DNA of 64,000 nucleotides. It comes from Verrucomicrobiales bacterium. Lineage in GTDB: Bacteria > Verrucomicrobiota > Verrucomicrobiia > Verrucomicrobiales > V1-33. The stretch's first letter is position 1. Every line of letters starts with the position of its first letter. The translations under genes were made by a program, and so were the position numbers. Shown here piece by piece: positions 20,331 to 36,568 of the stretch. The stretch covers positions 1-64,000 of the forward strand of contig JAQGPJ010000067.1 in the NCBI GenBank assembly GCA_028293125.1, given 5' to 3'. The notes under the pieces were generated by a model. The model was not told the DNA's origin. It was given only the letters and a program-made list of their open reading frames with translations, and did not search any database.

Positions 20331-20473
20331 ATACAAAAATTGTCTGCAAGCCGTGTGGCTTCGTCCTGCGGAATTCCGTGTTCGGCGAAGCGCTGATTGA
20401 AGATAGCTATACTTCCTTCCATAGCCAGCAGGCCTTTGGCCTCGGAGAGGAGAGCTTGGGGGCATGCCTTTCA

Positions 20474-20695
20474 CTAGAGAATCATCCGGGCACGCTCCAA
20501 GGACGCGTACGGCATGGATTCCCCTATCAGTCCCGCCTCCGCCTCCAGCCAGTTGGACTCATCATTCCCCTCCGCGTAACCACTGCGCTCATAGATGCTG
20601 TAGGCTCTGGCCGCGATTTCCGCGTTGGAGGGCGTGGAAGGTGTTGGGTGCGGTGATGGTGTTTTATCCGTCGGGGTTTTTTTTTGTTTTTTCAT
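20474..20695 (-). CDS. DUF2934 family small protein
   Basis: A 73-residue protein with a Lys/Thr/Pro-rich N-terminal tail (MKKQKKTPTDKTPSPHP) and a C-terminal domain, EIAARAYSIYERSG..EGNDESNWLEAEAG. The A-Y-x-I-x-E-x-x-G then W-L-x-A-E pattern is the signature of DUF2934, a short helical domain common in stress and plant-associated gene sets. The function is unknown. It sits between the intact usp gene and the receiver-like protein, on the same strand, with an AT-rich upstream region that probably contains its own promoter. Confidence 0.7.
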   Translation of the reverse strand: MKKQKKTPTDKTPSPHPTPSTPSNAEIAARAYSIYERSGYAEGNDESNWLEAEAGLIGESMPYASLERARMIL

Positions 20696-20737
20696 GTTTG
20701 CTAATTTAATACTAATATTATGCTTTACATCAAAATC

Positions 20738-21220
20738 TCAGGACTGTCTTAATAAATCATAGTCACCATGTAAATCGGCCATGCTATGCCAGGATGGAGC
20801 CGCATCAGACCGCCTGCAGACTGCCGAAATCAGTTCCCGGCTTGAAGCCGTCCTTGGTATCTCATCCACAAGTTCCTCCGGAGACAGCGCCGGATTGGAT
20901 TTTTCAAGATTCTTTCCCGAAAGGACCACGACTGCGGTATTGTCACCTTTGTCGCGTATGGCATGCACCAGATCACGGACACCAGTGCCTGGAATGACGG
21001 CCTCGGTCAGAACAACGTCGAAACGGTCAAAATCCAAAGCCTCCAAGGCCTCAGCTCCAGTGTGGACGCAGCGGGTGGTGAATCCGGACAAAGCAAGCAT
21101 TGCAGCATGAAGCGCACATTGCTTCCGGTCACCATTCACCAGCAGAATTTTGCGGCGTATTCCGCTTCTGGCGTTGAATGGACGTCCGGAATTTTCGCTC
21201 GACAGGTTGTTGAAATGCAT
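20738..21220 (-). CDS. Degenerate receiver-domain protein
   Basis: A 160-residue protein whose residues ~22-140 form a CheY-like receiver fold (IRRKILLVNGDRKQCALH, FDVVLTEAVIPGTGVRDL, AVVVLSGKN). The normal acidic pair at the first strand is replaced by Asn-Gly before an Asp. The phosphorylated Asp is Glu at about residue 73. The conserved Lys is absent (IPRTAS). It therefore cannot use the normal Asp phosphorylation chemistry, and may mimic a phosphorylated state or be an atypical stress regulator. It has no output domain. Confidence 0.75.
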   Translation of the reverse strand: MHFNNLSSENSGRPFNARSGIRRKILLVNGDRKQCALHAAMLALSGFTTRCVHTGAEALEALDFDRFDVVLTEAVIPGTGVRDLVHAIRDKGDNTAVVVLSGKNLEKSNPALSPEELVDEIPRTASSRELISAVCRRSDAAPSWHSMADLHGDYDLLRQS

Positions 21221-21338
21221 AATTTTTGATTTGGATATGATATTGATATAAGATAAGCATGAAAATTATATCTTGTAAAAAGAGTGGCCTTTGGCCGCCC
21301 ATGCTGCGTCCACCTTCATGATAAACCAGGTAATTGTG

Positions 21339-22080
21339 TCAAGATCTGAGAGGGCCATTCGGGGAGAATTTGTTCCGTGCGGTGCTGATCCTGATGGGAG
21401 TGCCCCGATCGACCCACTCGTAAAAACACCGGGACGGTTTGTTTCCGATGAGGGGGACCCGGATGCAGCCGTGAGAGGCGGGGTAGTCCGGGACGCTGGT
21501 GAAGCCGTGTATGAAAATGTGTCCGTTGATTTGAACACTCCAAGGCATGAGGGCATTGTGATAGCAGGAGGAGTAGTGTATGCGCGGCTTAAATGGGCCT
21601 GCCTGAAAATCACCTGCGGGTGTGCTGCCATTGCGGCCCGGACTGATTCGGGTCCGCAGGACAAGCCGGGCACCCTGCCACGCCTGCAATTCCTGATCGC
21701 CCAGACTGACCTCCACGCGTTTGGCCGGAATGGTGAGAGTAAAGCTGCGGAAACCGGAGCGCACGGTGATGCAGGCTGAATCGATGAGGGGCGCAATGCC
21801 GGCTCCGGCCAGCAGCACCAAAGCCTGATCCGCCAGTTCGGTGCCATCCGCCAGCAGGTGAAATGCATCCGGCATCGTGACGATATTGTTTAGCACTGTG
21901 CACTGACCGGGCCTCGTTGAATCTGATCCGCCAATGTAATTGATCAGCGACTTCCCTGACAGGAAGGAACCATGCCGAGGAGGATTCAGCAAAGCTCACG
22001 GCCTCCAGTTCTCTTGCGCGGACTTCGTTGGTTGACAAGACGCATGTTATAAACAATGGAAGACATTTAACAAAATTCAT
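21339..22080 (-). pseudogene. L,D-transpeptidase (YkuD) with a +1 frameshift
   Basis: From MNFVKCLPLFITCVL (signal peptide) the frame encodes SSSAWFLPVREVADQLHWRIRFNEAR, like the copper-amine-oxidase-N module often attached to transpeptidases. Near 21,915 the match moves to the +1 frame (CTVLNNIVTMPDAFHLLADG). One extra base in a C-run (GGCCCGG) explains it. The second half holds the YkuD catalytic motif as HGFTSVPDYPASHGCIRV, with the nucleophilic Cys. Without the shift it would make 3-3 crosslinks in peptidoglycan. It is either a pseudogene or an assembly error. The position fits an envelope gene within the stress island. Confidence 0.75.
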
Positions 22081-22110
22081 GGGCGGTGTAATCCTGCTTT
22101 TTTGTCATTT

Positions 22111-22464
22111 TTACGGGTTTCTCCATAGCAATGCGAGGCCAAGGACCATGGCCAAGCCGCCGGCGATGGCAGTACTCGGTTCGTGATGGATGAGTTTCTG
22201 CAAATCCCGCACGGCTCTTTTGGTCTGGGCCAGTCCGCTGGCCAGACAGTCCCTTGATTGATGAATGGCAGCGCCAGCAGCCTTGACGGTGGCGGAGGCC
22301 TCCCTGCCGCAATGAGCTGCAGTGTGCTGGATTTCGCTGACGCAATCATCAAAATTTCTGGCTTTGCCAGTGAGGTGTTTGGAGATGTTTCGTGTCGGTC
22401 GCGGATGGATCGCGCTTCGCCAAATCAAATAAAGCGCGCCCAAGCCGAGGCCGGACACCAGCAT
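22111..22464 (-). CDS. Membrane-anchored YqjD/DUF883-like protein, start uncertain
   Basis: A 117-residue protein opening MLVSGLGLGALYLIW (one membrane segment), then an amphipathic helical middle (REASATVKAAGAAIHQS) and a C-terminal hydrophobic helix ending AMVLGLALLWRNP. Layout and tail are like DUF883/ElaB-YqjD ribosome-anchoring proteins, though I cannot be sure. The frame before the ATG still reads as protein (AWWIHPSELIAQLPRRRP), and a Pro-rich leader in another frame begins at 22,622. A frameshift near 22,525 may have detached the N-terminus. Confidence 0.5.
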   Translation of the reverse strand: MLVSGLGLGALYLIWRSAIHPRPTRNISKHLTGKARNFDDCVSEIQHTAAHCGREASATVKAAGAAIHQSRDCLASGLAQTKRAVRDLQKLIHHEPSTAIAGGLAMVLGLALLWRNP

Positions 22465-22838
22465 CGGACGGCGGCGCGGCAGCTGCGCAATGAGTTCAGA
22501 CGGGTGGATCCACCACGCTTTGATCCCGGATCCCGAACATCGTGGGACTCTTTACGGGCAGGAGGCGGTTCAGGGCCCGGGACAGAAAATGGTGGAGGCG
22601 GTGGGTTGGCTTTAGTAATCATAAAAAATCTTCAAAAGCAGCTAATAATTTTATTACATTTTTCGTTTGTCCGTGTTCGGGTTGATTTGTTTTCCGCACG
22701 CGGATAATTAGCATTAACCTGTGTTCGCCGGGAAGCGCTCAAGCCACCACCTTGGAGTCGCCTCCCGGCGTTTCCCGGCAAAGCGCTGGGCCGCACTGGT
22801 TATATAACTTCAGGACGGTCGCGCCTCCCGGCGAAGTC

Positions 22839-23330
22839 TTATGTGATGCTGATATCAATGGCTGTGGATTTGGTCTTTTCATCCTTGGGCAGATGCACCA
22901 CCAGCATGCCATCCTTGAACTCCGCAGTCACCTTCCCGGGGTTGACCGCATCCGGCAGAATAAAGGTGCGGATAAAGCTTCCGTAAGACCGCTCAATGCG
23001 GTGGTATTTCTTTCCTTTTTCCTCCTTTTCCGTTTTTCGCTCACCGGAAATGGCGAGTTCGCCGTTCTCAACACTGACTTTTACATCCTCCTTTTTCAAT
23101 TCCGGGAGTTCCGTTTTTAGAACGTATTCCTTGTCATCCTCGCTGATGTCCACGGGTGGACTCCACTCCGCGACGGTCATGGTCTCTTTGTTGACCCCAT
23201 TGCCATTGCTCAAATGATGGACGGGATCCCACCCCAGCAATTTGCCGAGACGATTTTCGAATTTTCCGAAATTGCCAAAAGGATTCCAGCTTGGCGCTTG
23301 GATTCGGCTCGGGGCTAATAGTGAATTCAT
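22839..23330 (-). CDS. Hsp20 family small heat-shock protein
   Basis: A 163-residue small heat-shock protein. The N-terminal arm is SWNPFGNFGKFENRLG. The alpha-crystallin domain spans about residues 50-150 (WSPPVDISEDDKEYVLKTE, VKVSVENGELAISGERK, DGMLVVHLPKDE), with a C-terminal ISIT tail. It is related to, but clearly diverged from, the copy at 18,690-19,160. Its position next to the response regulator and kinase suggests the phosphorelay may control it. A possible promoter in the AT-rich stretch near 23,340-23,355 is weak. Confidence 0.92.
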   Translation of the reverse strand: MNSLLAPSRIQAPSWNPFGNFGKFENRLGKLLGWDPVHHLSNGNGVNKETMTVAEWSPPVDISEDDKEYVLKTELPELKKEDVKVSVENGELAISGERKTEKEEKGKKYHRIERSYGSFIRTFILPDAVNPGKVTAEFKDGMLVVHLPKDEKTKSTAIDISIT

Positions 23331-23446
23331 GTTTTGCTTGCTATAATTGAGTTCATAAATGACGACCGCATCATGTCTGTCATGGGTGGAAACTACCTGC
23401 GGATCCCCACAACAACTATTGGCAGATCCTCCCCGCCAGTCTCAGC

Positions 23447-23758
23447 CTATTGCTGACGCGCGCTCAGCGGGACGCTCGCCGGCAAGTGCATGTCAAAAGA
23501 GCGGACCCCAAACCCCAACCCTCGCCGGAGATCCCGCCCCGCCGTCCGCCACGCGCCCATCACTGCCGGCGACATTTGAGGATATAGCTGGAATCTCCGC
23601 GTGATTCCGCGGATGCCCACGAGGATGGGCCAACGGTCATTCAGGTCCAAGGTATCTCCCACGCGCAGCGGCACGTCTTTTTCGTCGGCCCTACAGCATG
23701 GACAAGCGTTTGCGGGCGCAATTTTACATAGCATGCTGACACCGCATGGCAGACACAC
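23447..23758 (-). CDS. Unclear small ORF with cysteine pairs
   Basis: A 103-residue frame that can start at GTG 23,758 (VCLPCGVSMLCKIAPANACPCCRADEKD..). It has CxxC-like cysteine pairs and then a stretch WPILVGIRGITRRFQLYPQ. I do not recognise a family. The frame that is open immediately upstream differs, and the coding evidence is weak. It sits in the 518-base gap between the Hsp20 gene and the response regulator. Confidence 0.25.
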   Translation of the reverse strand: MCLPCGVSMLCKIAPANACPCCRADEKDVPLRVGDTLDLNDRWPILVGIRGITRRFQLYPQMSPAVMGAWRTAGRDLRRGLGFGVRSFDMHLPASVPLSARQQ

Positions 23759-23848
23759 ATCCTGGATCCGGAGATGAAAAGCTCAAACCGTGAAGTATCC
23801 AAGCGCTCCCGCCATGGTTTGGGCCCCTGATTGATCACAGAATGCCCC

Positions 23849-24532
23849 TTACTCGTCGCCTACCCACCTGACGGCGTAGTGGATCAGTTCCGTGTTGCTT
23901 TTGAGTTCAAGTTTTTCCCGCAGGTGACTGCGGTGGGTGTCCACTGTTTTGAGGCTGATGTGCAGATCCGCTGCGATCTGATGCGTGTCGTTCCCCCGTC
24001 CGATAAGCCGGAGGATTTCAAGTTCGCGGTCTGTCAGCTTACCCAGAACGGAGGTGCTGGCAGCGGAACGTGGACGTGACAGCGAGTCCAGGATGGTGGC
24101 TGCGGTGCGGGCGCTGGCATAGACCTGACCGTTCAATACCTTGGTGATGGCCGCCAGCATTTCGTCCGGGCTCTCCTGCTTCATGATGTAGCCCCGGGCT
24201 CCCGCCCGCAGGGCGCGTTCGGCATAAAGGAGTTCATCATGCATGGAAATGATGAGCACGGGGAGCTCTGGTTTCATCGCATGAACATCCTGCATCAGCT
24301 CAAAGCCACTTTTCCCTGGCATACTGATGTCCATCAGGACCAGGTCAGGGTTAAGCCTGCAGAGGCCTTCGAAGGCCTGGGTGGCGTTCTCCGCTTCGCC
24401 GCACACCACAAGGTCGGGAATTTGACTGACAATTCTGACCAATCCGCCGCGAAAGACCGGATGGTCATCAATGATAAACACCTTTTTCGGTGGAGACTGT
24501 GTGCTTGAGCCTGAGGAAACTTTCTTAGGCAT
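23849..24532 (-). CDS. NarL/LuxR-family response regulator
   Basis: A 227-residue two-component response regulator. The receiver begins KKVFIIDDHPVFRGG with the acidic pair at D22-D23. The phosphoacceptor is D68 (LVLMDISMPGKSG), S96 follows (LIISMHDE) and K118 is conserved (GYIMKQ). A LuxR/NarL helix-turn-helix is at the C-terminus (LTDRELEILRLIGRG, KTVDTHRSHLREKL). The gene lies 12 bases after the six-PAS histidine kinase, so the two are surely partners. It likely switches on genes of the stress island, but no binding site can be read. Confidence 0.93.
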   Translation of the reverse strand: MPKKVSSGSSTQSPPKKVFIIDDHPVFRGGLVRIVSQIPDLVVCGEAENATQAFEGLCRLNPDLVLMDISMPGKSGFELMQDVHAMKPELPVLIISMHDELLYAERALRAGARGYIMKQESPDEMLAAITKVLNGQVYASARTAATILDSLSRPRSAASTSVLGKLTDRELEILRLIGRGNDTHQIAADLHISLKTVDTHRSHLREKLELKSNTELIHYAVRWVGDE

Positions 24533-24544
24533 ATGGCGGATGAA

Positions 24545-27500
24545 TTATTTCGGGGTGGAAGCGGGGAAGGTGCATACAACAAGTGTGCCTCCATCCGGAG
24601 GATGTGAAAATTCCAAAGTGCCGCCGATCAAATCCGCACGGTAGCCCATGATGCGCAGCCCCATGCCTTTGGTTCCCTTCGCGTGCGGTGTGGCGTCCCG
24701 GCCGCCGTTGTCCTGGATGGACATCTTTGTCCAGCGGGGAGTGACCGAAATTCCGATTTCGATTTTGCTGGCGGCTCCGTGCTTCACCGCATTGGTGATC
24801 GCCTCCTGGGCAATGCGATAGAGATGCGTCGCCATCTTGTTATCCAGCGTGAGATCGACGGGGCAATGGCTCCTGCACTGGATGCGGAACATGTTTGATG
24901 TCCGCTCACTAAGCTCTTTCAAGGCGGAATCGAAGCCGCCCTTCTCCAGGACCACAGGCTGCAGGCCGTGCGCCAGGGCACGGGTCAATGCCAGTGCGTC
25001 TTTGAGCAGCCGGAGGAGTTCATCGGCCAATCCGGCTTCACAGGAATTCTTGTCCGCCAGATTCCTTTTGAGCACGCCGGTAAGAAGGCTGATTCCTGCG
25101 ATTTGCTGTCCCAGGTCGTCATGCAATTCCTGACCGATGCGCTGACGCTCCAAATCACTGATATTTGAAATTTCCTGTTCCAGCTCGCGCCGTTTAACGA
25201 TCTCATCCTTCAGGTCCTCGTTGGCGATGCGAAGTTTCGCCGTGCGGCGGGCCACGCGATCCTCCAATTTCTCGTTCAGTTTCCGAATCATCTCCTCGGC
25301 GCGTTTGCGCTCGCTGATGTCCACGTGGGCAATGACCACAGAATGCGGAATCCCATCCTGAAACGGGGTGGCATAACCAACAAACCAGCGTTTTTCGTCA
25401 GGTGAGTGACACGCATATTCCATCGAGAACCGCGCCCTCCGTCCAGCGATCACGTCACGGATGCCGGTTGCAAAGACTGCTGATTCTTTATCACCTGATC
25501 CGGCGGCGGCATCGCAGACAGACAGATAGTCCGCCCCTTCACCCATCACGGAGCCGCTCCCTCCGTTCTGTGAAGCGAACTCCCGCCACGCCTGATTGGT
25601 TCTGACGATGATACCCTCGGGATTCAGCACTGCAAGGCTGGCGGGAACGGCCTCAAGCGTGGATTTGGCGAAACGCCGCGCGTAAGTAATTTCGTTTTCG
25701 AACCGCACACGGTCGTTGATGATTTCCGCGAACAGTATGATCCCGCCAATCTCACCCCTAGAGTCGTGCCACGGTCGGCATTCCCATTTTATCCAGTCCA
25801 ATGAGCCATCAGCCCGGGGGAACGGGTCCCTCTCGCAGCTTTCGGTGGCACCGGCAAGACAGCGCTGGTGAATTATCTTCCAGCTCTCAGGGATTTCAGG
25901 GAATATTTCGTAGTGGGACCTGCCCGTAAGGTCGCTGACATTCAGCCGGAAGTCCTCCACCCAGCGATCGCTGGCCACGATATACCGCATTTCACGATCA
26001 AACATCACCACGGGAGCAGGCGTGTGGAGAATGAAAAGCCGGAGACGTTCCTCGCTGGCCCTTAAAGCCTCCTCGGCTTTTTTCTGCTGGGTGATGTCCC
26101 TCACGGCGCTGATCACCAGCTTCCCTTCCGCAGTCTCGAGGGGACTCAGACTGACCTCTACTGGGAACTCGCCGCCATCCTTCCGCCGTGCCAACAGCGT
26201 CATCCCGACACCCATAGGCCTGGTATGCGGAGATGCGTTATAAGTGACCTGATGATCGGGATGGCGGCCGCGAAAGCGCTCGGGCAGCAGCATCTCCATG
26301 GGCTGGCCTATCAACTCGTCCCGCGAGTAGCCGAACAGCGTCATGGCCTGCGCGTTGATGAGTTCAACAACCCCACTCCCGTTGACGACGACCATCGCAT
26401 CCGGCGCGGACTCCAGCAGGCCACGGAACTTTTGCTCGCCCAGTTTGCGGCTGGTGATATCCCGGGAAATGCTGGATACGCCGATGATGCGGCCAGCGCT
26501 GTCGCGCAAGGGTGAGATAGTGAGGGAAACCTCCAGGATCCGGCCCTCCCTGCAGCGCCGCCTCGTCTCGCAGGGAGCGACACGCTCGCCGCGACGGATG
26601 TGATCCATGAGCGCCACCTCCGCTTCCCAGGCATCCGGCGGGATCAGAAACGCCACCGGCTTCCCCACAGCTTCCGCAGCGCTATAGCCGAAGAGGCGTT
26701 GCGCTCCGAAATTCCATGTGGTGATGATGCCGTCGAGCGTTTTGGTGATGATGGCGTCCTCGGAGGATTCCACCACGGCGGCAAGCTGGCGGCTCAGGGC
26801 TTCGGCTTTCTTGCGTTCCGAGATGTCCCTTGCCAAGCCGCTGATATGGTGAGGACGGCCATCCTTGCGGCCCATCACGATGCCGCGGTCCGTGATCCAG
26901 TGCATCCGGCCCTCACGGCTCAGTACCCGATATTCCATGCGGAAGGCGGGGGCTTCATCAGTGATCCAACGATAAAATGCGGTCCTGACCGTCTCACGGT
27001 CATCGGGGTGGATGGCGTTCATCCATACTTGATTGTCGGCGTAGAGATCAGTGGCCGGAATGCCCCAAATTTCCTCAAAGGCTGGGCTGACGTAGGTCAC
27101 GCGCGGCGGGTCCAGTTCCATGAACCAAAACACCTCGCCCATGTTTTCGGCCAGCAGCCGGAACCTGGCTTCACTGGCCATGAGCGCCGCCTCCGTGGTC
27201 CGCCGTTCGGTGACATCAACAAGGGCGGTGTGGCACCAGCCGGATTTGTTTTCAAATTCATGCGCTGGACGGGTGATGAACTCCACCCACCGTTCACCCC
27301 TGTCACCGGTGTTGAGACGCAGGGTGACAGTGTGTTCATCCCGGGAATGGCGGCACTGCCATAGATGTTTTAGAAAAGCTCTACGGTCCGCCTGCGCCAG
27401 ATATGGCACTATGGGGCGGCCAATCAGGTAAGCCTGGGCAAAGCCCAGCAGTTCAGCCGCCCTGTGGTTAATTTCGCGGATACAGGCCCGGTTATCCAAG

Positions 27501-27772
27501 GTGATGTAACCCACGGGCGCGAAGTTATAGAGATCCGCGTGGCGGTGCTGGCTGAGCTCCAGACTGGCGTGGGCCTGCTCAAGCTGTTCGTCACGCAGCT
27601 CGAGCAACTCCAGCAATTCCTGATAGTCCCGCGTTTGAGCTGGCGAATCCGCAGACTCCACGACACCGGAATTCCTGTTTTTCTCATCAGCCACCAAGCC
27701 TTTTCCGAGCCGCTTTCCCGCTTTCGCATCGCGCATCGGCTTCCTCGCTGATTTACGGACGGCACGTTTCAT
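24545..27772 (-). CDS. Cytoplasmic six-PAS histidine kinase
   Basis: A 1075-residue sensor without membrane helices. About six PAS domains are readable (YNFAPVGYITLDNRACIREIN, RLLAENMGEVFWFMELD, VVESSEDAIITKTLDGI, LLESAPDAMVVVNGSG, LFILHTPAPVVMFDREM, LEAVPASLAVLNPEGI). A HisKA_3 dimerisation domain follows with H884 (RIGQELHDDLGQQ). The HATPase domain has RIAQEAITNAVKH, IQDNG and KGMGLRIMGYRAD. It phosphorylates the adjacent NarL-type regulator. The signal is unknown; PAS domains could sense redox state, oxygen or ligands. It begins 11 bases after the CheB-CheR fusion. Confidence 0.9.
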   Translation of the reverse strand: MKRAVRKSARKPMRDAKAGKRLGKGLVADEKNRNSGVVESADSPAQTRDYQELLELLELRDEQLEQAHASLELSQHRHADLYNFAPVGYITLDNRACIREINHRAAELLGFAQAYLIGRPIVPYLAQADRRAFLKHLWQCRHSRDEHTVTLRLNTGDRGERWVEFITRPAHEFENKSGWCHTALVDVTERRTTEAALMASEARFRLLAENMGEVFWFMELDPPRVTYVSPAFEEIWGIPATDLYADNQVWMNAIHPDDRETVRTAFYRWITDEAPAFRMEYRVLSREGRMHWITDRGIVMGRKDGRPHHISGLARDISERKKAEALSRQLAAVVESSEDAIITKTLDGIITTWNFGAQRLFGYSAAEAVGKPVAFLIPPDAWEAEVALMDHIRRGERVAPCETRRRCREGRILEVSLTISPLRDSAGRIIGVSSISRDITSRKLGEQKFRGLLESAPDAMVVVNGSGVVELINAQAMTLFGYSRDELIGQPMEMLLPERFRGRHPDHQVTYNASPHTRPMGVGMTLLARRKDGGEFPVEVSLSPLETAEGKLVISAVRDITQQKKAEEALRASEERLRLFILHTPAPVVMFDREMRYIVASDRWVEDFRLNVSDLTGRSHYEIFPEIPESWKIIHQRCLAGATESCERDPFPRADGSLDWIKWECRPWHDSRGEIGGIILFAEIINDRVRFENEITYARRFAKSTLEAVPASLAVLNPEGIIVRTNQAWREFASQNGGSGSVMGEGADYLSVCDAAAGSGDKESAVFATGIRDVIAGRRARFSMEYACHSPDEKRWFVGYATPFQDGIPHSVVIAHVDISERKRAEEMIRKLNEKLEDRVARRTAKLRIANEDLKDEIVKRRELEQEISNISDLERQRIGQELHDDLGQQIAGISLLTGVLKRNLADKNSCEAGLADELLRLLKDALALTRALAHGLQPVVLEKGGFDSALKELSERTSNMFRIQCRSHCPVDLTLDNKMATHLYRIAQEAITNAVKHGAASKIEIGISVTPRWTKMSIQDNGGRDATPHAKGTKGMGLRIMGYRADLIGGTLEFSHPPDGGTLVVCTFPASTPK

Positions 27773-27783
27773 ACTGGCTCCTG

Positions 27784-30744
27784 TTAGGCGGTGACATCCT
27801 CCAGCGTCAGCAGGATCAGCGGAGGCTGACTGGTTTCCGGCGCAAAACGCCGCGCATTGAGCAGCATCGATTTCCTGCCAATGACGGGGAAATCCCGCTC
27901 AATTCTGAAACCCCGGATAGTGGACTTCCGAGGGAGAATTTTCTCCAGCAGCTCGCGCAGTGATGCCATGTTCCAAGCGCCGTCCCCGGTCTCAAGGAGC
28001 AACTTGCCATGGGTGCCGGCCGGCGTGGTGCGGAACAGGCTGTGGAAGCTTTGGTTCGCTGACTTCACGCGCAGGTCGCCGTCCAGAACAAGCAGCGGCT
28101 CGTGGATTGTGGCGACAATTGCTTCGGCGTAATCCCGGGCGGCTTCCGCCTCCGCGAGGGAGCGTTTGACGGCGTCGATGTCCTGCAGGATGAGCACCAC
28201 GCCATTGATGCGGTGATCCGTTGTCCTGTAGGGCCGGATGCGCAGGGCATGCCACCGGTTCTCGAGGTCCTGCACTTCCAGTTCCTTGGCGTTGAGGCTG
28301 TCAATGACTTCCGTGATCAGTTCGGTAAGGTTTGACAGCCGCAGTTTGATTTTGAAATCCGAGAGAGGGCGGCCCACATCGCTTGCCAGCAGGTTCAGCA
28401 CTCTGACCGTGCGCGGGGTGAAGCGGCGGATGCGCAAATCGGCACTGAGGATGATGATCGGGACATCAATGCTTGCGAACAAATTGATCATGTCGTCGCT
28501 GACTTCCTGGAGCTCGATGTTCCGGATTTGAAACTCGTCATTGAGCGTGATGAGCTCCTCATTGGTGGACTGAAGCTCCTCGGTTGCGGTCTCCATTTCC
28601 TCATTGGTGCTCTGGAGTTCCTCATTGCTGGAAAGGATCTCCTCGTTCGCCGCACGGAGTTCCTCGTTGGCGGCATCCTGTTCCTCAATGATGTGCTGGA
28701 GGGAGAGCTTGGTGGAGGCAAGCTCATCGTGCAGTTGATCCAGTTCACGCTGCGTGGCATTGGCCCGAAGCGGATGGCATTTGCGTGTGTCGTTGAATCC
28801 GGTGGACGCGGGTTCCTCGAAAACCACGAGGAAGAACAATTCTGTGAAGTCCGGTATCTGCAAGGGATGCACGCGCACATGCACGGTGATCACCCGTCCG
28901 TCATGCCGCACTTCCACGCCCTCCTTCCCGACCGCCCGCTTTTGTCTGGTGGACTTGGCAATGAGCGGACGTAATTCCAAAGCGAGTCCCGGGCGCGCCA
29001 TTTTGAGCAAGTTCAGGGTGGCTTCTCCCGGAGTGTTTTCGAGGTAGGCTCCCGTGCGGCCCCGGAACTGGAGAATTTCCATGCTGGAATTAACCACAAC
29101 GCCCGCAGGGGAGAACTGGCTGAGCACCACAGCGTCAGCCTGCCGGCGGACGATGCTCAGGACAGGCTCTGCCGGTGCATGCACCGGGCCGTCAGGTGTA
29201 ACATTGTGCCCCCCCCGTGTGGCCATGAGTCGGGCGGGCGGGTTGTAGTAGCGCGTGTGTGCGAACGTTTTTTCGTAGACGCGGTATTTGGGCTCAGCCA
29301 AAGCGAATAATTCACAATGCGCCCCTATGGATTCCGCCGCGCCAAGGATGAGGAAACCATGAGGACGGAGGGCGTAGTGAAAAACCGGAATCACTTTCTT
29401 CTGCAGAGCGGCATCAAAATAGATCAGCACATTCCGGCAACTGATGAGATCAACGTGCGAGAAGGGCGGGTCCTCAAACAGGTTTTGCCGCGCGAACATG
29501 CACAGGTCGCGGATGGATTTGTTGATGCGGTAGCCACCGTCGGACTTCGTGAAGAATTTCCTCAGACGCCCGGATGCCACGTCATCCTTGATCCGCTCCG
29601 GATACATCCCGGCGCGGGCGCGGCTGATGACGTTTTCGTTGATGTCCGTGCCAAACAGCTGCATATGGCCGCGCACGCTCTCCTTTTCCATGAACTCCAC
29701 GAGCGCTATGGCCATGGAGTATACCTCCTCGCCCGTGGAACACCCCGGCATCCACAGGCGGATGGGAGCGTCGGGCTGGCGGTTTTGGATGATCCGCGGG
29801 AGGATTTTCCTCTTCAGAAAGTCGAACATCCCGGGATCCCGAAAGAAGCCAGTGACTCGGATGAGAACGTCCTGAAACAACGCCTCACTTTCCGCCGGGT
29901 TGGCACACAGATGATCAATGTATTCCTTGATCGTCTGCATCCTCAGCATCCCCATGCGGCGGATGATACGGCGATGCAGGGTCGCGGGTTTATAATGCGT
30001 GAAGTCCACACCGCTGTGCGTCAGCAGCTGGGCGCGGATCCGCTTGAAATCCCCGTCTTCGATCACCGGTTCGCTCTCTTTCCCCGGCACTGGCGTGTGA
30101 AGGAGGGGCTGATGGCCTCCAAAGCGCATCAGTTCCACGGCGATCTGACCCGGCGGCAGAATATAATCCGCCACACGGCTGGCACTTGCGGGCATGCCTG
30201 CAAATCGCGCCGAAGCTTCATCCTGCGTGAAGGTGATGCCGCCTGCCGCCTTGATTTCCTCCAGCCCCTGAGTGCCATCTGAACCAGTGCCGGAGAGCAC
30301 GACTCCAACCGCCTGCGCCCCTAAATCGGATGCCAATGCCCGGAAAAAATAGTCCACCGGCGCATGGTCGTCTCCCCCGGCAATATCACGGGGGAAAAGC
30401 CGCAGTCTGCCGTTCCCGATGCCCATCTTTTTATTTGGCGGGATGACATATACATGCTCGGGCGCCACAGCCATTCCATGCGTCGCCTCGTATACGCCCA
30501 TTGCGGTGGTCCGCGACAGCAGTTCCGTCAGAGAGCTTTCGTGCGACGGATCAAGATGCTGGACCAGTACAAAAGCCATCCCGGTATTCGCAGGCAAATG
30601 TTTAAGCAGCAAAGTCACCGCTTCCAAACCACCGGCGGAAGCACCGATTCCAACGACAGGGAAGCGCCCCGCCGCAGAGAGCTTGGATCGGTTGTTTCCG
30701 TCCGCCTTGGCTCTTCCACCTCCGGCTGGTCTCTTTTTTATCAC
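27784..30744 (-). CDS. CheB-CheR-PAS fusion protein
   Basis: A 986-residue protein. The CheB methylesterase domain is at about residues 28-215, with Ser36 (GIGASAGG), His63 (LVQHLDPSHES) and an Asp in GTGSDGTQG. The CheR methyltransferase is at about 240-510 (RRMGMLRM, MPGCSTGEEVYS, ISCRNVLIYFD). A long coiled coil rich in ANEE/SNEE repeats is at about 660-750, then PAS domains. It ends at LTLEDVTA without its own kinase domain, and the kinase gene follows 11 bases later. There are no chemotaxis genes in the window, so it may modify a non-chemotaxis sensor. It probably shares an operon with the kinase and regulator. Confidence 0.88.
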   Translation of the reverse strand: MIKKRPAGGGRAKADGNNRSKLSAAGRFPVVGIGASAGGLEAVTLLLKHLPANTGMAFVLVQHLDPSHESSLTELLSRTTAMGVYEATHGMAVAPEHVYVIPPNKKMGIGNGRLRLFPRDIAGGDDHAPVDYFFRALASDLGAQAVGVVLSGTGSDGTQGLEEIKAAGGITFTQDEASARFAGMPASASRVADYILPPGQIAVELMRFGGHQPLLHTPVPGKESEPVIEDGDFKRIRAQLLTHSGVDFTHYKPATLHRRIIRRMGMLRMQTIKEYIDHLCANPAESEALFQDVLIRVTGFFRDPGMFDFLKRKILPRIIQNRQPDAPIRLWMPGCSTGEEVYSMAIALVEFMEKESVRGHMQLFGTDINENVISRARAGMYPERIKDDVASGRLRKFFTKSDGGYRINKSIRDLCMFARQNLFEDPPFSHVDLISCRNVLIYFDAALQKKVIPVFHYALRPHGFLILGAAESIGAHCELFALAEPKYRVYEKTFAHTRYYNPPARLMATRGGHNVTPDGPVHAPAEPVLSIVRRQADAVVLSQFSPAGVVVNSSMEILQFRGRTGAYLENTPGEATLNLLKMARPGLALELRPLIAKSTRQKRAVGKEGVEVRHDGRVITVHVRVHPLQIPDFTELFFLVVFEEPASTGFNDTRKCHPLRANATQRELDQLHDELASTKLSLQHIIEEQDAANEELRAANEEILSSNEELQSTNEEMETATEELQSTNEELITLNDEFQIRNIELQEVSDDMINLFASIDVPIIILSADLRIRRFTPRTVRVLNLLASDVGRPLSDFKIKLRLSNLTELITEVIDSLNAKELEVQDLENRWHALRIRPYRTTDHRINGVVLILQDIDAVKRSLAEAEAARDYAEAIVATIHEPLLVLDGDLRVKSANQSFHSLFRTTPAGTHGKLLLETGDGAWNMASLRELLEKILPRKSTIRGFRIERDFPVIGRKSMLLNARRFAPETSQPPLILLTLEDVTA

Positions 30745-31545: not shown

Positions 31546-31815
31546 ATGTCAGTCGCCACAGAATTCAGGGGCTGCGGGGTGGCAGAGTTGCACAGGGTGA
31601 TGCATTCCATTGCCAGGCGGGCCACGTCTGATCTTTCCTTGCTCAGACGTGCCAGCGCTTGGCGGCGTGTTTGTCAATTGCGTCTGCGCTTAGAAAAACT
31701 CCAGGCAATATTGCCTGGGCATGGTGCCAGTGTTGCGCAAAACAACAGAGCACTTCAGGAGGTGCGTATCCGATTATTCAAAAAAGGTGGCTCTTCCCAA
31801 ATCAACATGATATGA
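31546..31815 (+). CDS. Small basic ORF before the primase-like gene
   Basis: An 89-residue frame with many Arg and Leu residues (VMHSIARRATSDLSLLRRAS, QLRLRLEKLQ) that could form helices. Its TGA stop overlaps the ATG of the next gene as ATGA at 31,812-31,815. The same four-base junction occurs between the primase-like and TIM-barrel genes, which is the main reason to list it. No family is recognised. It may be a non-coding leader. Confidence 0.35.
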   Translation: MSVATEFRGCGVAELHRVMHSIARRATSDLSLLRRASAWRRVCQLRLRLEKLQAILPGHGASVAQNNRALQEVRIRLFKKGGSSQINMI

Positions 31816-33374
31816 TCGTCAAAGAAAATCCACAGACCGCCGGAATTCCCATTTTAAGCCGTGCGGGATCACGGCCTCCCCTGCGCTCGGGCAAGGGGCC
31901 TTCCGCCGGTGCGGTATCCCTGCCAAGTCGGACACGAAATGGCGGAGCACGGAGGGCGAGCCAAAACTTTCAAAATACCTTAATCGCATTAGCCCGGCCC
32001 GCTTCCTCCCAAGTTTACGAGGACCACTTTGTCAGAAAGCGTCTGGAGGAATTTCTGGGGCGCAGCCTTGGGCGGAATTTGACAGCGCATTATATAACCC
32101 AAGCGGACAACTGCCTGTATCAGCGTGGAAATCTTCGGAAACCAACAGAACTGGACTGGTTCCTGCAAAACGAGATGGATATTGCCAGGTCACTCGGTGA
32201 CACCGAGTCCCTTCTGTTTCATCTTGACGTGGAATACGTCAATTTTGACATCCCAGGGCAGGCGTTTCCTGATCCGCACCGCGCTTTTGAACTGCAGCAA
32301 CCGGTCATCACCACAATTGATACCCTGCTTTACGGCTGGGGAATCAAACCTCTTCATATTCTGACCGGCCAAGGCCATCACTTCGTATGGCGCATTCCCA
32401 GAGTTTCGCCCTTGGCGGCGGAAATCGCCTCGCTCTCTCCGGCTCCGGAATTGCTTGAACCCTGCACGGAACGCATACCGCATGAAATTTGTCCCGAGCG
32501 TGACATGGAGGGGCAGCGGGCATTTGGAGCAGTTGCCCTCCTGATGGAGTTTGTAGCGCACCGGGTCAGGGCGGCCGCAGCCCGTCATTCCTCTTTGCCG
32601 GTCGAGATGACGGCTGTTCATGTGGGTCCCTGCCATGCCGGGCAGCGGGAAATCATCTCCATCGACATTTCCGAATATGGCGACCCGCTGCACGCCAGAA
32701 TGGTCCGGATGCCATTCACCAGATACCGCAAAGCACTGGCTCAGGGCGCTTCTTTATGGGCGGTTCCGGTTGACGGGATGACGACAGCCCAAAGTCTAGA
32801 AATACGCGGAAACGGGGCGGCGGTTGCGGATCTGGCACACAGGGCCAGCGGCGCCATCCCCGACCAAACTCCCGGCACTGAACGCCTTTTGAGTGCCTAT
32901 GAAGCATCCGCACTCTGCTGTTTTCATAAAGAATTTTATTCGTCCAAACATGATCCCCCTTCTATCTGGAGCCAGACCTATGACAGGACTCCGCTGGATT
33001 TTCTGCCCCATTGCGCGCGTCATATTCTGACATGCCCCAATGACCGGCTTTTGAAGCCCGCAGGCATCCAGATTGTCACGCGGAGCCTTTTGGCCCAAGG
33101 CTGGCATCCGCGCCACATCGCCGGCCTGATCCGCTCCAAATTCGCGGATTCCTCCTACTCCTGGGGCATCGACTGGAACGACTATGAGCCCGGCACCCGG
33201 GCTGACTTCTATGTCCGGCTGTTTGCGGGCCTTTACGCCACCGGCCTCGACCAACTCGTGGACATGAACTGTGTCTCCACCGCCGAAAAGGGTTTTTGTT
33301 TTCAATACCCCGGCATTTGTCCGGGACTTGAGAAAGAGCGGCACAATCTGCTTTCCCGTAAATATCCATTATGA
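31812..33374 (+). CDS. Putative AEP primase with PriL-like cysteine domain
   Basis: A 520-residue protein, starting at the ATG coupled to the upstream ORF. The core shows HLDVEYVNFD with the acidic pair D139/E141, then ILTGQGHHFVW (H189/H190), then IISIDISEYGDPLHARMVR with D285. These match the order and spacing of the archaeo-eukaryotic primase motifs I, II and III. The C-terminal part has LPHC (C401), GWHPRHIAGLIRSKF, TRADFYVRLFAG, and C487-8x-C496-6x-C503, like the four-cysteine iron-sulphur domain of the primase large subunit. This looks like a small-plus-large-subunit fusion. It overlaps the next gene by ATGA. The activity is inferred, not proven. Confidence 0.6.
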   Translation: MIVKENPQTAGIPILSRAGSRPPLRSGKGPSAGAVSLPSRTRNGGARRASQNFQNTLIALARPASSQVYEDHFVRKRLEEFLGRSLGRNLTAHYITQADNCLYQRGNLRKPTELDWFLQNEMDIARSLGDTESLLFHLDVEYVNFDIPGQAFPDPHRAFELQQPVITTIDTLLYGWGIKPLHILTGQGHHFVWRIPRVSPLAAEIASLSPAPELLEPCTERIPHEICPERDMEGQRAFGAVALLMEFVAHRVRAAAARHSSLPVEMTAVHVGPCHAGQREIISIDISEYGDPLHARMVRMPFTRYRKALAQGASLWAVPVDGMTTAQSLEIRGNGAAVADLAHRASGAIPDQTPGTERLLSAYEASALCCFHKEFYSSKHDPPSIWSQTYDRTPLDFLPHCARHILTCPNDRLLKPAGIQIVTRSLLAQGWHPRHIAGLIRSKFADSSYSWGIDWNDYEPGTRADFYVRLFAGLYATGLDQLVDMNCVSTAEKGFCFQYPGICPGLEKERHNLLSRKYPL

Positions 33375-34276
33375 ATTCATGGACTATTGGCCTATCCACA
33401 GGCTGCTTTTACCGTCAGCCGATTCTGGACGTCCTTCCCGCGATCCGGGCTGAGGGTTTCGAGGATATCGAAATCTGCTCCTTTCCCAAACACCTTGACT
33501 ACCATTCCGAAGCCGAGGTTCACAAGGCTGGTGAAATGATTCTTTCTCTTGGACTGCGGGTCGTATCGTTCCATGCGCCATTTGCGGATCAGATCGACAT
33601 TACCTCTTTTGATCCGAATCAAAGGGAAGCATCCATTGCTGAATTAATTCTCGCCTGCACCGCCGCCGCCCGGCTCGGTGCCCGGAATGTGGTGCTTCAC
33701 CCCGGGCCGGAAAGGACGGGGCGTCCGCCTCACGACGCGTTTGTGCTTCATATGCGCCACGCCGCGGATGGCCTGAACCGGGTGGCGGCCCGTTGCTGCG
33801 AACTGGGGGTGCAACTGCTTCTCGAAAACATGCTGCCCCATCTTCTTTTCGGTCAGACGAGTGACATGCTTTACCTTCTTGGGAGCATTAACACCTGCAG
33901 TGTGGGCACCTGTCTGGATACCGGACATGCCCGCCTCAGCGGCGACCTTCATCAAGTCGTGTATAAGCTTTCGGGCCACCTGAAAATGGTTCATGCCAAT
34001 GACAACATGGGTGATTGGGATGCCCATCTGATTCCCGGAGATGGCTCCATCGACTGGCCATGGCTCATAAGCGAGCTCAAACGCCTCGGTTTTCAAGGTC
34101 CTCTGATCATTGAGATGGCCGGGCAGAACGGGGAAAACACCTCCTCTACTCTGGAGCGCGCTCTTCGAGGCCGTCTGTTTCTTGAAAATCTGCTCCGGGG
34201 GCAGGTACAGGCCGGTGCCCCGCATCCCGCTCCGACCCAATTCCGGGCCAGCCCGGCCACTCTTTCACTCACCTAA
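33371..34276 (+). CDS. Endonuclease IV / xylose-isomerase-type TIM barrel
   Basis: A 301-residue AP-endonuclease-2-fold protein. Likely metal ligands follow the barrel strands: H in VSFHAPF, H in VVLHPGPE, E in LLLENM, D and H in CLDTGHA, H in MVHANDN, D and H in WDAHLIPGDG, and E in LIIEMA. That pattern resembles the nine-ligand trinuclear zinc site of endonuclease IV, but many sugar isomerases of this fold keep most of the same residues. It could cut DNA at abasic sites or isomerise a sugar. Coupling to the primase-like gene by a four-base overlap favours a nucleic acid role only weakly. Confidence 0.7.
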   Translation: MNSWTIGLSTGCFYRQPILDVLPAIRAEGFEDIEICSFPKHLDYHSEAEVHKAGEMILSLGLRVVSFHAPFADQIDITSFDPNQREASIAELILACTAAARLGARNVVLHPGPERTGRPPHDAFVLHMRHAADGLNRVAARCCELGVQLLLENMLPHLLFGQTSDMLYLLGSINTCSVGTCLDTGHARLSGDLHQVVYKLSGHLKMVHANDNMGDWDAHLIPGDGSIDWPWLISELKRLGFQGPLIIEMAGQNGENTSSTLERALRGRLFLENLLRGQVQAGAPHPAPTQFRASPATLSLT

Positions 34277-34282
34277 AACCAT

Positions 34283-34567
34283 ATGTTAAGCAAATTCGCC
34301 ATCGATTACATCCCTCTGCCCGGAATCAATACCACCACGGCCACTCACCGCACCGATGATCCAGTGGAGGCGGAGGAGTTTCTCATGCATCTTCTCAATG
34401 CCGGATCCAAACTTCTCGAAATACGCCACGATGGAGTGAAGCTCTCGCCCCACCAGTCAGATATGATGCTGCGGGTCGCCGCGGAGCGGAATACTTCCGC
34501 CGTGCTTCAGAAGTTTCTCGGCATTGACGGAGTGGAGGTAAAACACCGGTTCGGCTTCGCTCCATGA
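34283..34567 (+). CDS. Small unknown protein of the primase module
   Basis: A 94-residue protein beginning MLSKFAIDYIPLPGINT. It has a helical middle (VEAEEFLMHLLNAGSKLLEIRHDGVKLS) and a C-terminal segment ending VEVKHRFGFAP. It follows the TIM-barrel gene by six bases and precedes acetate kinase. Its TGA stop is in the same frame as acetate kinase, but that is probably coincidence. I do not recognise the family. The layout suggests a small accessory protein of the module. Confidence 0.6.
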   Translation: MLSKFAIDYIPLPGINTTTATHRTDDPVEAEEFLMHLLNAGSKLLEIRHDGVKLSPHQSDMMLRVAAERNTSAVLQKFLGIDGVEVKHRFGFAP

Positions 34568-34594
34568 ACACTCAAGAGCCGGGGCGGACTGTCG

Positions 34595-34993
34595 GTGCTT
34601 GCTGTGAACTGCGGCTCGTCCAGTGTGCGTTTCTCAGTGTATGGAGTCGGTGAGAAGCCAGTTCTGCGGCTTGAAGGCAGGGTTGGCCGTATGGGCCTGC
34701 CTGGGGCAAATCTCTCCTTCCACAGCCTGGTCACCGGGCGGATCCACACGCGGCCCATAGCGGAGGGCGACGGCCCATCCATGCTCAGCCTGATGCTGGA
34801 GGTGCTTGAGGACCAGAGGGAATTCGCCTCCATCGTAGCCGTGGGGCATCGGGTGGTGCACGGCTTTGACCACACAGAGCCCCGGATGGTGACTCAGGAA
34901 CTTCTTCAAGAGTTGGAGTGTCTGATTCCCCATGCTCCGGAGCATCTGTTAATTCCCGAATTATCTGGCGCGAATTTGGTCGAATTATTGTAA
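34595..34993 (+). pseudogene. ackA: Acetate kinase, N-terminal third only
   Basis: The frame from GTG (VLAVNCGSSSVRFSVYG) carries the acetate kinase phosphate-binding N-terminus and then IVAVGHRVVHGFDHTEP and ECLIPHAPEHL. Homology stops there near 34,945, about a third of the usual ~400 residues, and the frame ends at 34,993 inside the left end of the IS. The catalytic Asp/Glu region and C-terminal lobe are missing. Acetate kinase makes ATP from acetyl phosphate, so loss would remove a fermentation step, unless another copy exists elsewhere. Confidence 0.85.
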
Positions 34994-35053: not shown

Positions 35054-36568
35054 ATGAATTGTCTGTACAACGCGATGCAGTTTGCTGAAAAGCGTTACAT
35101 GCCCTTAAAAAAGCAGAGTAGACCCGCACAGGAGATGACGCGGCTCCATGAACTTGCTGAAATATCTCCAATGGATGCGGAGACGGCTAAAGGCAGCTTT
35201 GGAGATACACGTCTGGACCGGCGGTTTAAAACGCTGCTGGATGGTCTCTTCCGCCACATCGGCGGCAGCATTCCGTTTGCCTGTCAGGACTGGGCGGCCA
35301 CAAAGGCGGCCTACCGGTTTTTCTCCAATCCGCGGGTGAGTGAAGAGGGCATCCTGGCGGGGCATTTCGAGGCATCACAGGGCCGCGTGCAGGCGGCGGA
35401 GGGCCCTATCCTGATCCTGCACGACACCACGGAGTTCACCTATCAAAGACAGGGCATCACGGGCATGGGTCTTCTCAAACGCAGTTTTGCCTGCAGGGAC
35501 TTCCGGAAAACCGGGCGCCCTGCCCGCCTGACGGTAAGAGGGATGCTCATGCATTCCAGCATGGCCTTCACCCTGGACGGGCTGCCCCCCGGGCTGACCG
35601 CCATCAAGTTCCGGACCCGCAGCAAATTTAAAGGTGCCGCGGAACTGAAGCGGCATGTCAATCCCACCCGCATTCCCATTGAGGAGAAGGAGAGTTTCTG
35701 CTGGCTGGAGAATCTGCGGCAGTCCACCTGTCTTCTCAATGACCCCGGACGCTGCGTTCACATTGGTGACCGTGGAAGTGATATCTTTGAGTTGTTCCGC
35801 GCGGCACAGGAGGAGAAAACGCACTTCCTGTTCCGCACCTGCGTGGACCGTTACGCCGGAGAACGGGGGCTGACCATTGCCAAGGAAATGGAGATGCCGG
35901 ACGGACGGGGCATGCGCACGCTGCAGCTTAAAACAAAGGACGGAAACCTGTCAGAGGCACAAGTGGAGATCAGATACCGCCGCCTGCGCATCCTGCCCCC
36001 GGAGGGCAAAAAGAAACGGTATCCGGCGCTGGAACCCACCGTCATTCATGTCATGGAAAACGGTGAACCCGAAGGCAGGGAACCGGTAAAGTGGAGGCTT
36101 CTGACGGACCTTCCGGTCACCTCCATGGAGGAGGCCCTCGAAAAGACATGCTGGTATGCGCCGCGCTGGAAAATTGAAATATTCCATAAGATTCTTAAAT
36201 CCGGCTGCAAAGCGGAGGAGTTCCTGCTGAGGTCCTCGGAGCGGCTGGTAAAGCTCATTTCCGTGTTTTGCATCGTGAGCTGGCGCATATTTTGGATCAC
36301 CATGCTCAACCGCGCCGCGCCCGACGCGCCGCCGGACCTTGCACTGACGGAGGATGAGTGCCGGACGCTGGACCAACTGACAAATTCTGACCCGCCCCCC
36401 GCTGCGGCCCCGCACGGCATGTCACACTACTTTACCGCCATTGCACGCCTTGGAGGATATCTGGCGCGAAGGCGGGATCCTCCACCTGGCAACACGGTCA
36501 TGTGGCGGGGCCTGCGAAGGCTTGCTGACATCATGCTCGGCGTGCAAATCCAAAAAACTTATGGGTAA
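35054..36568 (+). CDS. IS4-family transposase (IS50/Tn5-like)
   Basis: A 504-residue DDE transposase. The N-terminal domain has FGDTRLDRRFKTL and DWAATKAAYRFF. The first catalytic Asp is in LILHDTTEFTY, the second in HIGDRGSDIFEL and the Glu in RWKIEIFHKILKSGC, inside the Y-(2)-R-(3)-E-(6)-K signature typical of IS4. A second ATG at 35,099 is also possible. The gene fills the IS, and its stop lies in the right terminal repeat. The frame is intact, so the element may be mobile. Confidence 0.92.
   Translation: MNCLYNAMQFAEKRYMPLKKQSRPAQEMTRLHELAEISPMDAETAKGSFGDTRLDRRFKTLLDGLFRHIGGSIPFACQDWAATKAAYRFFSNPRVSEEGILAGHFEASQGRVQAAEGPILILHDTTEFTYQRQGITGMGLLKRSFACRDFRKTGRPARLTVRGMLMHSSMAFTLDGLPPGLTAIKFRTRSKFKGAAELKRHVNPTRIPIEEKESFCWLENLRQSTCLLNDPGRCVHIGDRGSDIFELFRAAQEEKTHFLFRTCVDRYAGERGLTIAKEMEMPDGRGMRTLQLKTKDGNLSEAQVEIRYRRLRILPPEGKKKRYPALEPTVIHVMENGEPEGREPVKWRLLTDLPVTSMEEALEKTCWYAPRWKIEIFHKILKSGCKAEEFLLRSSERLVKLISVFCIVSWRIFWITMLNRAAPDAPPDLALTEDECRTLDQLTNSDPPPAAAPHGMSHYFTAIARLGGYLARRRDPPPGNTVMWRGLRRLADIMLGVQIQKTYG

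Follow-up and report, generated by a model that had tools for sequence, protein, structure and literature searches.

Repair of gapped DNA by a primase-polymerase together with an endonuclease has been described in mycobacteria, where a functional partnership between the AEP gap-filler Prim-PolC (acting with LigC) and endonuclease IV was demonstrated, and where endonuclease IV was the most efficient gap-processing enzyme for Prim-PolC repair in vitro (PMC5663958). The Prim-PolC gene is linked to an ATP-dependent ligase, and the mycobacterial endonuclease IV is a standard Nfo that is not linked to it. Fe-S domains of the PriL type have been associated nearly exclusively with the chromosomal primases of archaea and eukaryotes, and their PriCT cousins are mostly found on mobile elements (PMC5862659).

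The locus analysed here, in a window of 64,000 nucleotides (the whole stretch of DNA examined) from a Verrucomicrobiales bacterium, encodes a 520-residue protein whose closest solved AEP structure is Prim-PolC (Z 17.4), followed by a TIM barrel. It differs from the mycobacterial system in that the 520-residue protein has a PriL Fe-S-like domain that Prim-PolC lacks, the barrel gene is linked, and no ligase is among the 25 commonest families of the 112 ORFs neighbouring the primase–barrel pair. PolpTN2 of the archaeal plasmid pTN2 is likewise a single-chain fusion of PriS-like and PriL-like parts with four Fe-S cysteines (PMC3973330, PMC5862659). However, it is archaeal and plasmid-borne and has no barrel partner; it carries Gln at motif II where the 520-residue protein has His, a PriCT-1 domain between its AEP and PriL parts for which the 520-residue protein has no room, and a C-terminal winged helix where the latter has no extension (PMC5862659). 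An hhalign comparison of the family with PolpTN2 as a single template was not significant (P 0.087), with motif II in register. With archaeal and eukaryotic PriS-PriL the 520-residue protein shares the AEP fold (Z 10-11), a PriL-CTD-like domain and the cysteine order, but it is one chain, bacterial and barrel-coupled, it lacks the PriL N-terminal domain, and PF04104 stays under its gathering score while PF01896 is absent. The barrel has all nine metal ligands of endonuclease IV (Nfo), but the DNA-probing loops of Nfo are missing and it lies far under the TIGR00587 cut-off. The first-pass annotation knew of no such unit; we found no description of the primase–barrel pair in the literature searched either, but for a PriS-PriL-type fusion PolpTN2 is a precedent (PMC3973330).

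Layout of the locus

The reading frames and overlaps are as follows.

31546-31815, small basic ORF
31812-31815, first ATGA overlap, between the small basic ORF and the 520-residue ORF
31812-33374, + strand, AEP/PriL-CTD-like protein (P0001), 520 aa counted from the first ATG, with residues ~58-520 as the conserved part
33371-33374, + strand, second ATGA overlap, primase stop and barrel start (frame overlap common in relatives)
33371-34276, + strand, endonuclease-IV-like TIM barrel (P0002), PF01261, 301 aa
34283-34567, small 94-aa ORF, 3′ of the barrel
34595-34993, acetate-kinase N-terminal fragment (PF00871, E 1e-15)

The ORFs and both ATGA overlaps were correctly placed by the first-pass annotation. 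The start of the 520-residue protein is uncertain: homologues begin about 58-66 residues further in, no ATG, GTG or TTG stands at that position in the window, and the N-terminal ~58 residues show no conservation in the 67-member family alignment. The second overlap may couple translation of the primase and the barrel. The small basic ORF, which had been taken as part of the unit, has no match at relatives' loci, and the 94-aa ORF has a single weak one (in L040); both were dropped as members. The acetate-kinase fragment likewise does not accompany the pair elsewhere. Stress genes, among them Usp and Hsp20, stand close to the pair in the window, and an IS transposase lies downstream. This stress-gene island is outside the conserved primase–barrel unit, and the proposal of a dormancy island as the general context was not supported, as Usp is the commonest neighbouring family yet accounts for just 7 of 112 neighbouring ORFs.

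An AEP domain joined to a PriL-CTD-like domain

None of the family collections searched with P0001 (Pfam, NCBIfam, PHROGs) gave a match above cut-off, and a Pfam LRV match (E 0.05) was dismissed as noise. Sequence searches of the PDB with the single sequence and with profiles found no AEP or PriL chain; the best match, 5fq6 (E 0.19-1.4), was also noise. The conserved core, in contrast, gave a confident AF2 model (pLDDT 92.9, pTM 0.94), from which the following features were mapped together with an alignment of 67 homologues of the 520-residue protein (36-60% identity).

31983-32909, + strand, AEP (primase-polymerase) domain, core residues 1-309 (VIA-align)
32220-32237, + strand, AEP motif I, HLDVEY (D139, E141); D and E each in 67/67
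32364-32390, + strand, AEP motif II, TGQGHHFVW (H190; GQGHH 186-190); G186, G188 and H190 in 67/67
32664-32732, + strand, AEP motif III and the block after it, DISEYGDPLHARMVRMPFTRYRK (D285, R296, K307)
32958-33371, + strand, PriL Fe-S-domain-like helical C-terminal domain (AF2, VIA-align)
33012-33014, + strand, Cys401, putative 4Fe-4S ligand 1, 67/67
33270-33272, + strand, Cys487, putative 4Fe-4S ligand 2, 66/67
33297-33299, + strand, Cys496, putative 4Fe-4S ligand 3, 67/67
33318-33320, + strand, Cys503, putative 4Fe-4S ligand 4; a Cys 1-11 residues past C496 in 67/67

VIA-align superposed the AEP domain on Prim-PolC (6sa0) with Z 17.4 over 253 aligned residues at 3.5 Å, followed by LigD-Pol (Z 15), CAPP (Z 12) and PriS (Z 10-11), and the first 36 structural rows (Z ≥ 8.4) were all AEPs or AEP-containing complexes. 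The model indicates that the core is an AEP fold of the RRM-derived prim-pol type, and its nearest solved relative is Prim-PolC on gapped DNA, then LigD-Pol, both ahead of PriS. Under the published motif definitions (I hhhDhD/E, II sxH, III hD/E; PMC5862659), motif I corresponds to HLD139-V-E141, motif II to G188-H189-H190 and motif III to I284-D285. In the motif III block D285, R296 and K307 are found in 67/67 homologues and R299 in 66/67. Distant relatives at 18-22% identity retain the D/E of motif I, read SGGH at motif II and DNSWCEG..RSIRSPFSLHKK at motif III. An hhalign comparison of the AEP part with 13 LigD-Pol homologues from related genomes gave no significant match; the kinship to repair Prim-Pols therefore rests on structure and motifs. 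PF01896 is absent from the 520-residue protein; the PF01896 match in the genome is LigD. As an AEP, the protein would be predicted to make primers or polymers on a template.

Folded alone, the C-terminal domain was again modelled confidently (AF2 pLDDT 91). Its six best structural rows were all PriL Fe-S domains from yeast, Xenopus and human (Z 6.0-4.9, 111-118 aligned; VIA-align), with the next unrelated fold below them at Z 4.1, a moderate match that emerged only when VIA-align re-examined the Foldseek candidates; Foldseek on this domain found no significant match. PF04104 was weakly matched in 5 of the 67 family members (best E 0.0091), the best single member printed scoring 14.6 bits against a gathering score of 22.4 bits, and we therefore name the domain PriL-CTD-like, not PriL. 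There is no PF04104 match in the genome. The PriS-binding N-terminal domain of PriL is missing, with ~17 residues between the AEP match, which runs to residue 309 of the core, and the C-terminal domain, which starts at residue 326. The cysteine layout, C401-x85-C487-x8-C496-x6-C503, fits the PriL order C..x~80..C-x(n)-C-x(n)-C, with a variable spacing of the fourth cysteine within the family, and the domain probably carries a 4Fe-4S cluster. One relative (G167) has kept the barrel and lost the cysteines, and distant relatives likewise lack them.

Taken together, these results bear out most of what had been read from the letters. The numbering of D139/E141, GQGHH 186-190, D285 and C401/C487/C496/C503 is correct in the translation; and these residues go beyond chance, D139, E141, G186, G188, H190, D285, C401 and C496 being invariant in 67 homologues and the other two cysteines kept to the extent listed above. 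The confident model, with an AEP fold and a PriL Fe-S-like helical domain, and the conserved D/E, H and Cys residues agree with the PriS-PriL-like fusion proposed for a bacterium, and neither of the two refuting outcomes set by the first-pass annotation came about.

The barrel and its pairing with the primase

P0002 is a PF01261 protein (E 2.8e-38) whose putative metal ligands, H68, H110, E152, D183, H186, H208, D217, H219 and E248, are invariant in 45/45 homologues and align with all nine ligands of E. coli Nfo. None of the other aligned PF01261 paralogues in the genome has the full nine-ligand set, and a sugar isomerase assignment was rejected on this ground. The nearest solved structure is MJ1311, an uncharacterised barrel (E 6.4e-36). 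However, the R37 loop of Nfo is missing, F71 replaces Nfo Y72 and the loop before Nfo D229 is shortened; because these DNA-probing elements are missing, we call the barrel EndoIV-like, not Nfo, and AP-site incision in the Nfo manner is not assured. It scores 28.7 bits against TIGR00587 (cut-off 129.65). By its ligand set, the barrel would be an endonuclease-IV-type three-metal phosphodiesterase.

The barrel gene lies directly downstream of the primase gene in 75/77 loci, and the two are once naturally fused in frame (L039), so the gene order noticed at this locus is conserved; it is adjacent in 16/16 loci from related genomes. The frames overlap in 60 of 71 scorable relatives' pairs, by exactly 4 nt in 36 of those. 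The two proteins show correlated pairwise distances (r 0.83; shuffled maximum 0.21), to which shared ancestry contributes. The pair is found in at least eight bacterial phyla, with a patchy distribution (10 of 289 genomes sampled in the phylum). Among 112 neighbouring ORFs, neither ligases nor glycosylases recur regularly next to the pair, and no ligase is among their 25 commonest families; LigD and Ku are encoded on other contigs of the genome. Canonical Nfo was above cut-off in 9/57 relatives, none of which (0/9) has the pair, an exclusion confounded by phylogeny since the Nfo genomes are mostly of one family.

Candidate functions of the pair

The side-by-side genes suggest a new bipartite machine for DNA repair or restart. 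Directly established are the fold and conserved active-site residues of the first protein, its PriL-CTD-like domain and cysteines, the complete ligand set of the barrel, and conserved adjacency; from these we infer that the two proteins form a complex, that the first carries an Fe-S cluster and that both are catalytically active, along with a substrate and a physiological role. We give about even odds to a dedicated two-protein DNA-processing module, AEP/PriL-CTD-like plus EndoIV-type barrel, working by gapped-DNA repair. The Prim-PolC-like AEP fold with its invariant residues, the PriL Fe-S-like domain, the near-constant linkage, the nine barrel ligands, the Nfo distribution, the mycobacterial precedent and the stress genes near the pair in the window speak for it; the lack of a regular ligase or glycosylase neighbour, the missing Nfo loops, the non-DNA enzymes of the barrel superfamily, the non-significant LigD-Pol profile comparison and the cysteine loss in G167 speak against it. 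The overlapping frames would allow both proteins to be made together, and they probably bind each other. The PriL-like domain would hold on to a DNA end at a gap or nick, by the template and the 5′ side, and the primase partner would position the barrel for cleavage at a damaged site or removal of a 3′-block. The barrel would trim or nick the damaged ends, and the AEP domain would then fill the short gap, possibly with ribonucleotides. Such a module would correspond to the stationary-phase excision repair by Prim-PolC/LigC/EndoIV in mycobacteria, with a fixed set of components. More tentatively, it could be a chromosomal bacterial system in which a single-chain PriS/PriL-CTD-like 4Fe-4S primase and a pared-down EndoIV-type nuclease act as one obligate unit to incise damaged DNA and fill it in again, in at least eight phyla, replacing canonical Nfo in its hosts.

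A primer-synthesis or restart module, in which the AEP and PriL-like domains prime de novo so that stalled replication can resume, while the barrel removes flaps or blocked 3′ ends from the fork, appears unlikely. By analogy with PriL, the Fe-S domain would then hold the initiating NTP and the template. The PriL subunit modulates catalysis in PriS-PriL primases and PolpTN2 priming is impaired once its PriL-like domain is removed (PMC3973330), and the C-terminal domain is closer to the PriL Fe-S domain than to any other fold in the VIA-align second look. Against this, helicase and replisome genes are not regular neighbours (112 neighbouring ORFs), the AEP domain is structurally closer to Prim-PolC and LigD-Pol (Z 17.4 and 15) than to PriS (Z 10-11), and the PriL N-terminal domain is absent. 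It is less probable still that the barrel acts on a non-DNA phosphodiester (nucleotide, nucleotide-sugar or cofactor), while the AEP domain serves an RNA or small-molecule pathway as a nucleotidyltransferase. The barrel superfamily does hold non-DNA enzymes such as CbiR, a cobamide phosphodiesterase that also relies on the conserved metal-binding residues (PMC7733943); CbiR tops the NCBIfam scores of the barrel (39.8 bits against 37.5 for Nfo, both far under cut-off), and the Nfo DNA-probing loops are missing. However, the barrel is near-obligately beside a protein with AEP motifs and a PriL-like domain, once fused to it in frame, and no metabolic gene is conserved among the 112 neighbouring ORFs.

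We regard a role in anti-phage defence or mobile-element replication as quite improbable. Most bacterial AEPs with PriCT domains are mobile-element genes (PMC5862659), and both the patchy spread and the IS transposase in the window would fit; but searches against phages, plasmids and viral contigs yielded nothing, PADLOC has no family for the pair (P0001 none, P0002 E 0.015), and the tree is largely grouped by phylum. Finally, a chance look-alike, an unrelated protein with D/E, H and Cys fortuitously in AEP/PriL order, would fit the empty family and PDB sequence searches but is scarcely credible, being refuted in the main by the modelled AEP match (Z 17), with the six PriL rows and the invariance of the key residues across phyla also against it.

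The 520-residue protein belongs to a chromosomal bacterial family that joins an AEP to a PriL-like domain, lies outside the Pfam and NCBIfam models and is nearly always paired with an EndoIV-like barrel. Verrucomicrobium spp. and Candidatus Laterigemmans offer a small cultivable system in which to probe the role of the Fe-S domain apart from replication, and the pair suggests that AEP–nuclease coupling in excision repair extends well beyond mycobacteria.

Two linked genes and their surroundings

The pair comprises two overlapping genes in the window:

31812-33374, + strand, protein 1 gene, archaeo-eukaryotic primase (AEP)-like protein of 520 residues
33371-34276, + strand, barrel gene, endonuclease IV (Nfo)-like TIM barrel of 301 residues

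In the window sequence an ATGA overlap joins the stop of protein 1 to the barrel start, and translation located every protein 1 residue named in the first-pass annotation at its assigned position. The length of 520 residues hinges on the ATG at 31812. Relatives start 58–66 residues later, at M-x-x-F/V-Y-A-D-x-A-V-R-x-R-L, a position at which none of ATG, GTG and TTG occurs in the window; protein 1 therefore has either a lineage-specific N-terminus or a mis-called one.

The proposed linkage of the two genes proved to be conserved, with the barrel directly downstream on the same strand at 75 of 77 public loci and at 16/16 loci in related genomes. The two exceptions are a contig end (L085) and a broken pair with only a barrel remnant (L089). 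Reading frames overlap in 60 of 71 scorable pairs, by exactly 4 nt in 36, and at L039 one 758-codon open frame spans both genes; barring loss of the stop through a sequencing error, this is a natural fusion. Between the two proteins, pairwise distances show a correlation of r 0.83 (69 loci), part of which is due to shared ancestry alone; shuffling the labels 1000 times gave no value above 0.21. The decayed pair at L162 (G303 C1, about 7726–10108), whose primase frame breaks in the C-terminal domain (CTD) and enters a barrel without its N-terminal half, is a deletion remnant.

No further conserved gene was found when 112 ORFs neighbouring the pairs were scanned for families, Usp being the commonest (7), with Hsp20 and response regulators at 3 each. 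A stress-type island with Usp, Hsp20, alcohol dehydrogenase (ADH), PNPOx and L,D-transpeptidase genes lies near the pair in the window. A minus-strand cluster of stress-type genes at 12834–30744 encodes ADH, three Usp proteins, a PNPOx-like protein, two Hsp20, an L,D-transpeptidase and a CheB/CheR-like protein of 986 aa, plus a PAS histidine kinase and response regulators. The segment 34595–36568 holds an acetate-kinase N-terminal fragment (132 codons, PF00871 positions 2–121 of 392) and, after it, a Tn5/IS4-type transposase (35054–36568). The kinase lacks its remainder, so an insertion event probably cut the gene short.

Fold, motifs and distribution of protein 1

The AlphaFold2 model of protein 1 (67 sequences; pLDDT 92.9, pTM 0.94) best matches Prim-PolC (Z 17.4, 253 residues, 3.5 Å), followed by LigD-Pol (Z about 15), CRISPR-associated Prim-Pol (Z 12) and archaeal/eukaryotic PriS (Z 10–11), and rows 1–36 of the structural comparison are all AEPs or AEP-containing complexes. 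The AEP reading of the first-pass annotation is borne out by motifs I (HLDxEY), II (TGxGHH) and III (hD), which are invariant or nearly so and agree with the published definition (PMC5862659). In three distant relatives at 18–22% identity the blocks D.E, SGGH-like, D and RSxRSPFSLHKK-like persist. As comparison of profiles detected no match to LigD-Pol, homology rests on the fold and the order of the motifs.

Folded alone (pLDDT 91), the CTD has as its top six structural rows the Fe-S domain of the primase large subunit (PriL; yeast, Xenopus and human), as had been suggested, with 111–118 of 138 residues aligned at Z 6.0–4.9. The tool warns that a Z below 8 may reflect a common arrangement. 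The next unrelated row scores Z 4.1 and pRN1 primase Z 3.8; the PriCT-1 domain of the latter is a known cousin. No Foldseek E-value for the CTD was significant. PF04104 weakly matches 5 of 67 members (best E 0.0091; one CTD alone, E 0.021), and the four cysteines stand in PriL order (C401-x85-C487-x8-C496-x6-C503). Taken together, the top-row specificity, the weak PF04104 matches and the cysteine order make the match convincing. Because the PriL N-terminal domain is absent from protein 1 and the CTD does not reach the Pfam cut-off for PF04104, we term it PriL-CTD-like.

The distant relatives in G101 and G090 lack both the Fe-S cysteines and the barrel. At L165 (6195–8503, genome G167) the barrel is intact and the AEP motifs are kept while the cysteines are lost, which suggests that the putative cluster is dispensable in this lineage. 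Distant AEP relatives at L163 (8103–11174, two divergent copies back to back) and L164 (157–1470) carry canonical SGGH and IRSPFSLHKK motifs without Fe-S cysteines, barrel or any Pfam match, and are a possible outgroup family.

Protein 1 is single-copy in its genome and has no family above cut-off in Pfam, NCBIfam or PHROGs. Homologues occur in 19 of 57 related genomes and at 77 public-genome loci, with record titles of Verrucomicrobia, Planctomycetota, Acidobacteriota, Fibrobacterota (with Chitinivibrionales), Latescibacterota, Gemmatimonadota, Deltaproteobacteria (assigned to Myxococcota by the tree tool), Clostridia and Hydrogenedentota; most source genomes are MAGs, and single-phylum assignments may reflect binning errors. 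In a quick tree, clean clades were recovered for three-row groups such as Acidobacteriota, and two changes suffice for Verrucomicrobiota. Searches of phages, plasmids and viral contigs yielded no homologue.

The barrel and a possible role in repair

The barrel matches PF01261 (E 2.8e-38), and among solved structures it is closest to the uncharacterised MJ1311 (E 6.4e-36). Its residues H68, H110, E152, D183, H186, H208, D217, H219 and E248, invariant across 45 homologues, match all nine metal ligands of E. coli Nfo in the alignment, but it lacks the R37 loop, has a shortened loop before D229 and carries Phe for Y72. The source genome has 23 PF01261 barrels, and none of the others aligned has the full nine-ligand set.

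Canonical Nfo exceeds the cut-off in 9 of 57 relatives, none of which has the pair, and sub-threshold matches are solely the pair's own barrels. This mutual exclusion is suggestive only, as eight of the nine Nfo genomes come from one family. The genome of the pair also encodes a LigD-type ligase-polymerase (G000:C44:6245-6880) and a Ku gene adjoining a second LigD-Pol homologue (G000:C10:36922-38605), so it has repair Prim-Pols besides the pair.

PriS–PriL fusions occur on archaeal plasmids, as in PolpTN2 (PMC3973330). No prior description of the pair was found in the literature searched, which mostly lacked subscription journals, and an earlier mention is possible. Rival explanations are that it is a primer-making restart module, that the barrel acts on a non-DNA substrate, or that the pair serves in conflict.

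In mycobacterial excision repair, Prim-PolC fills short gaps with ribonucleotides, most efficiently when endonuclease IV processes the ends (PMC5663958). By analogy, the pair looks like a dedicated version of this arrangement: the AEP of protein 1 falls in the same structural neighbourhood as Prim-PolC, its added PriL-type Fe-S domain would grip DNA, and the barrel, with an EndoIV-type active site and its own DNA-probing loops lost, would plausibly depend on its partner for substrate.
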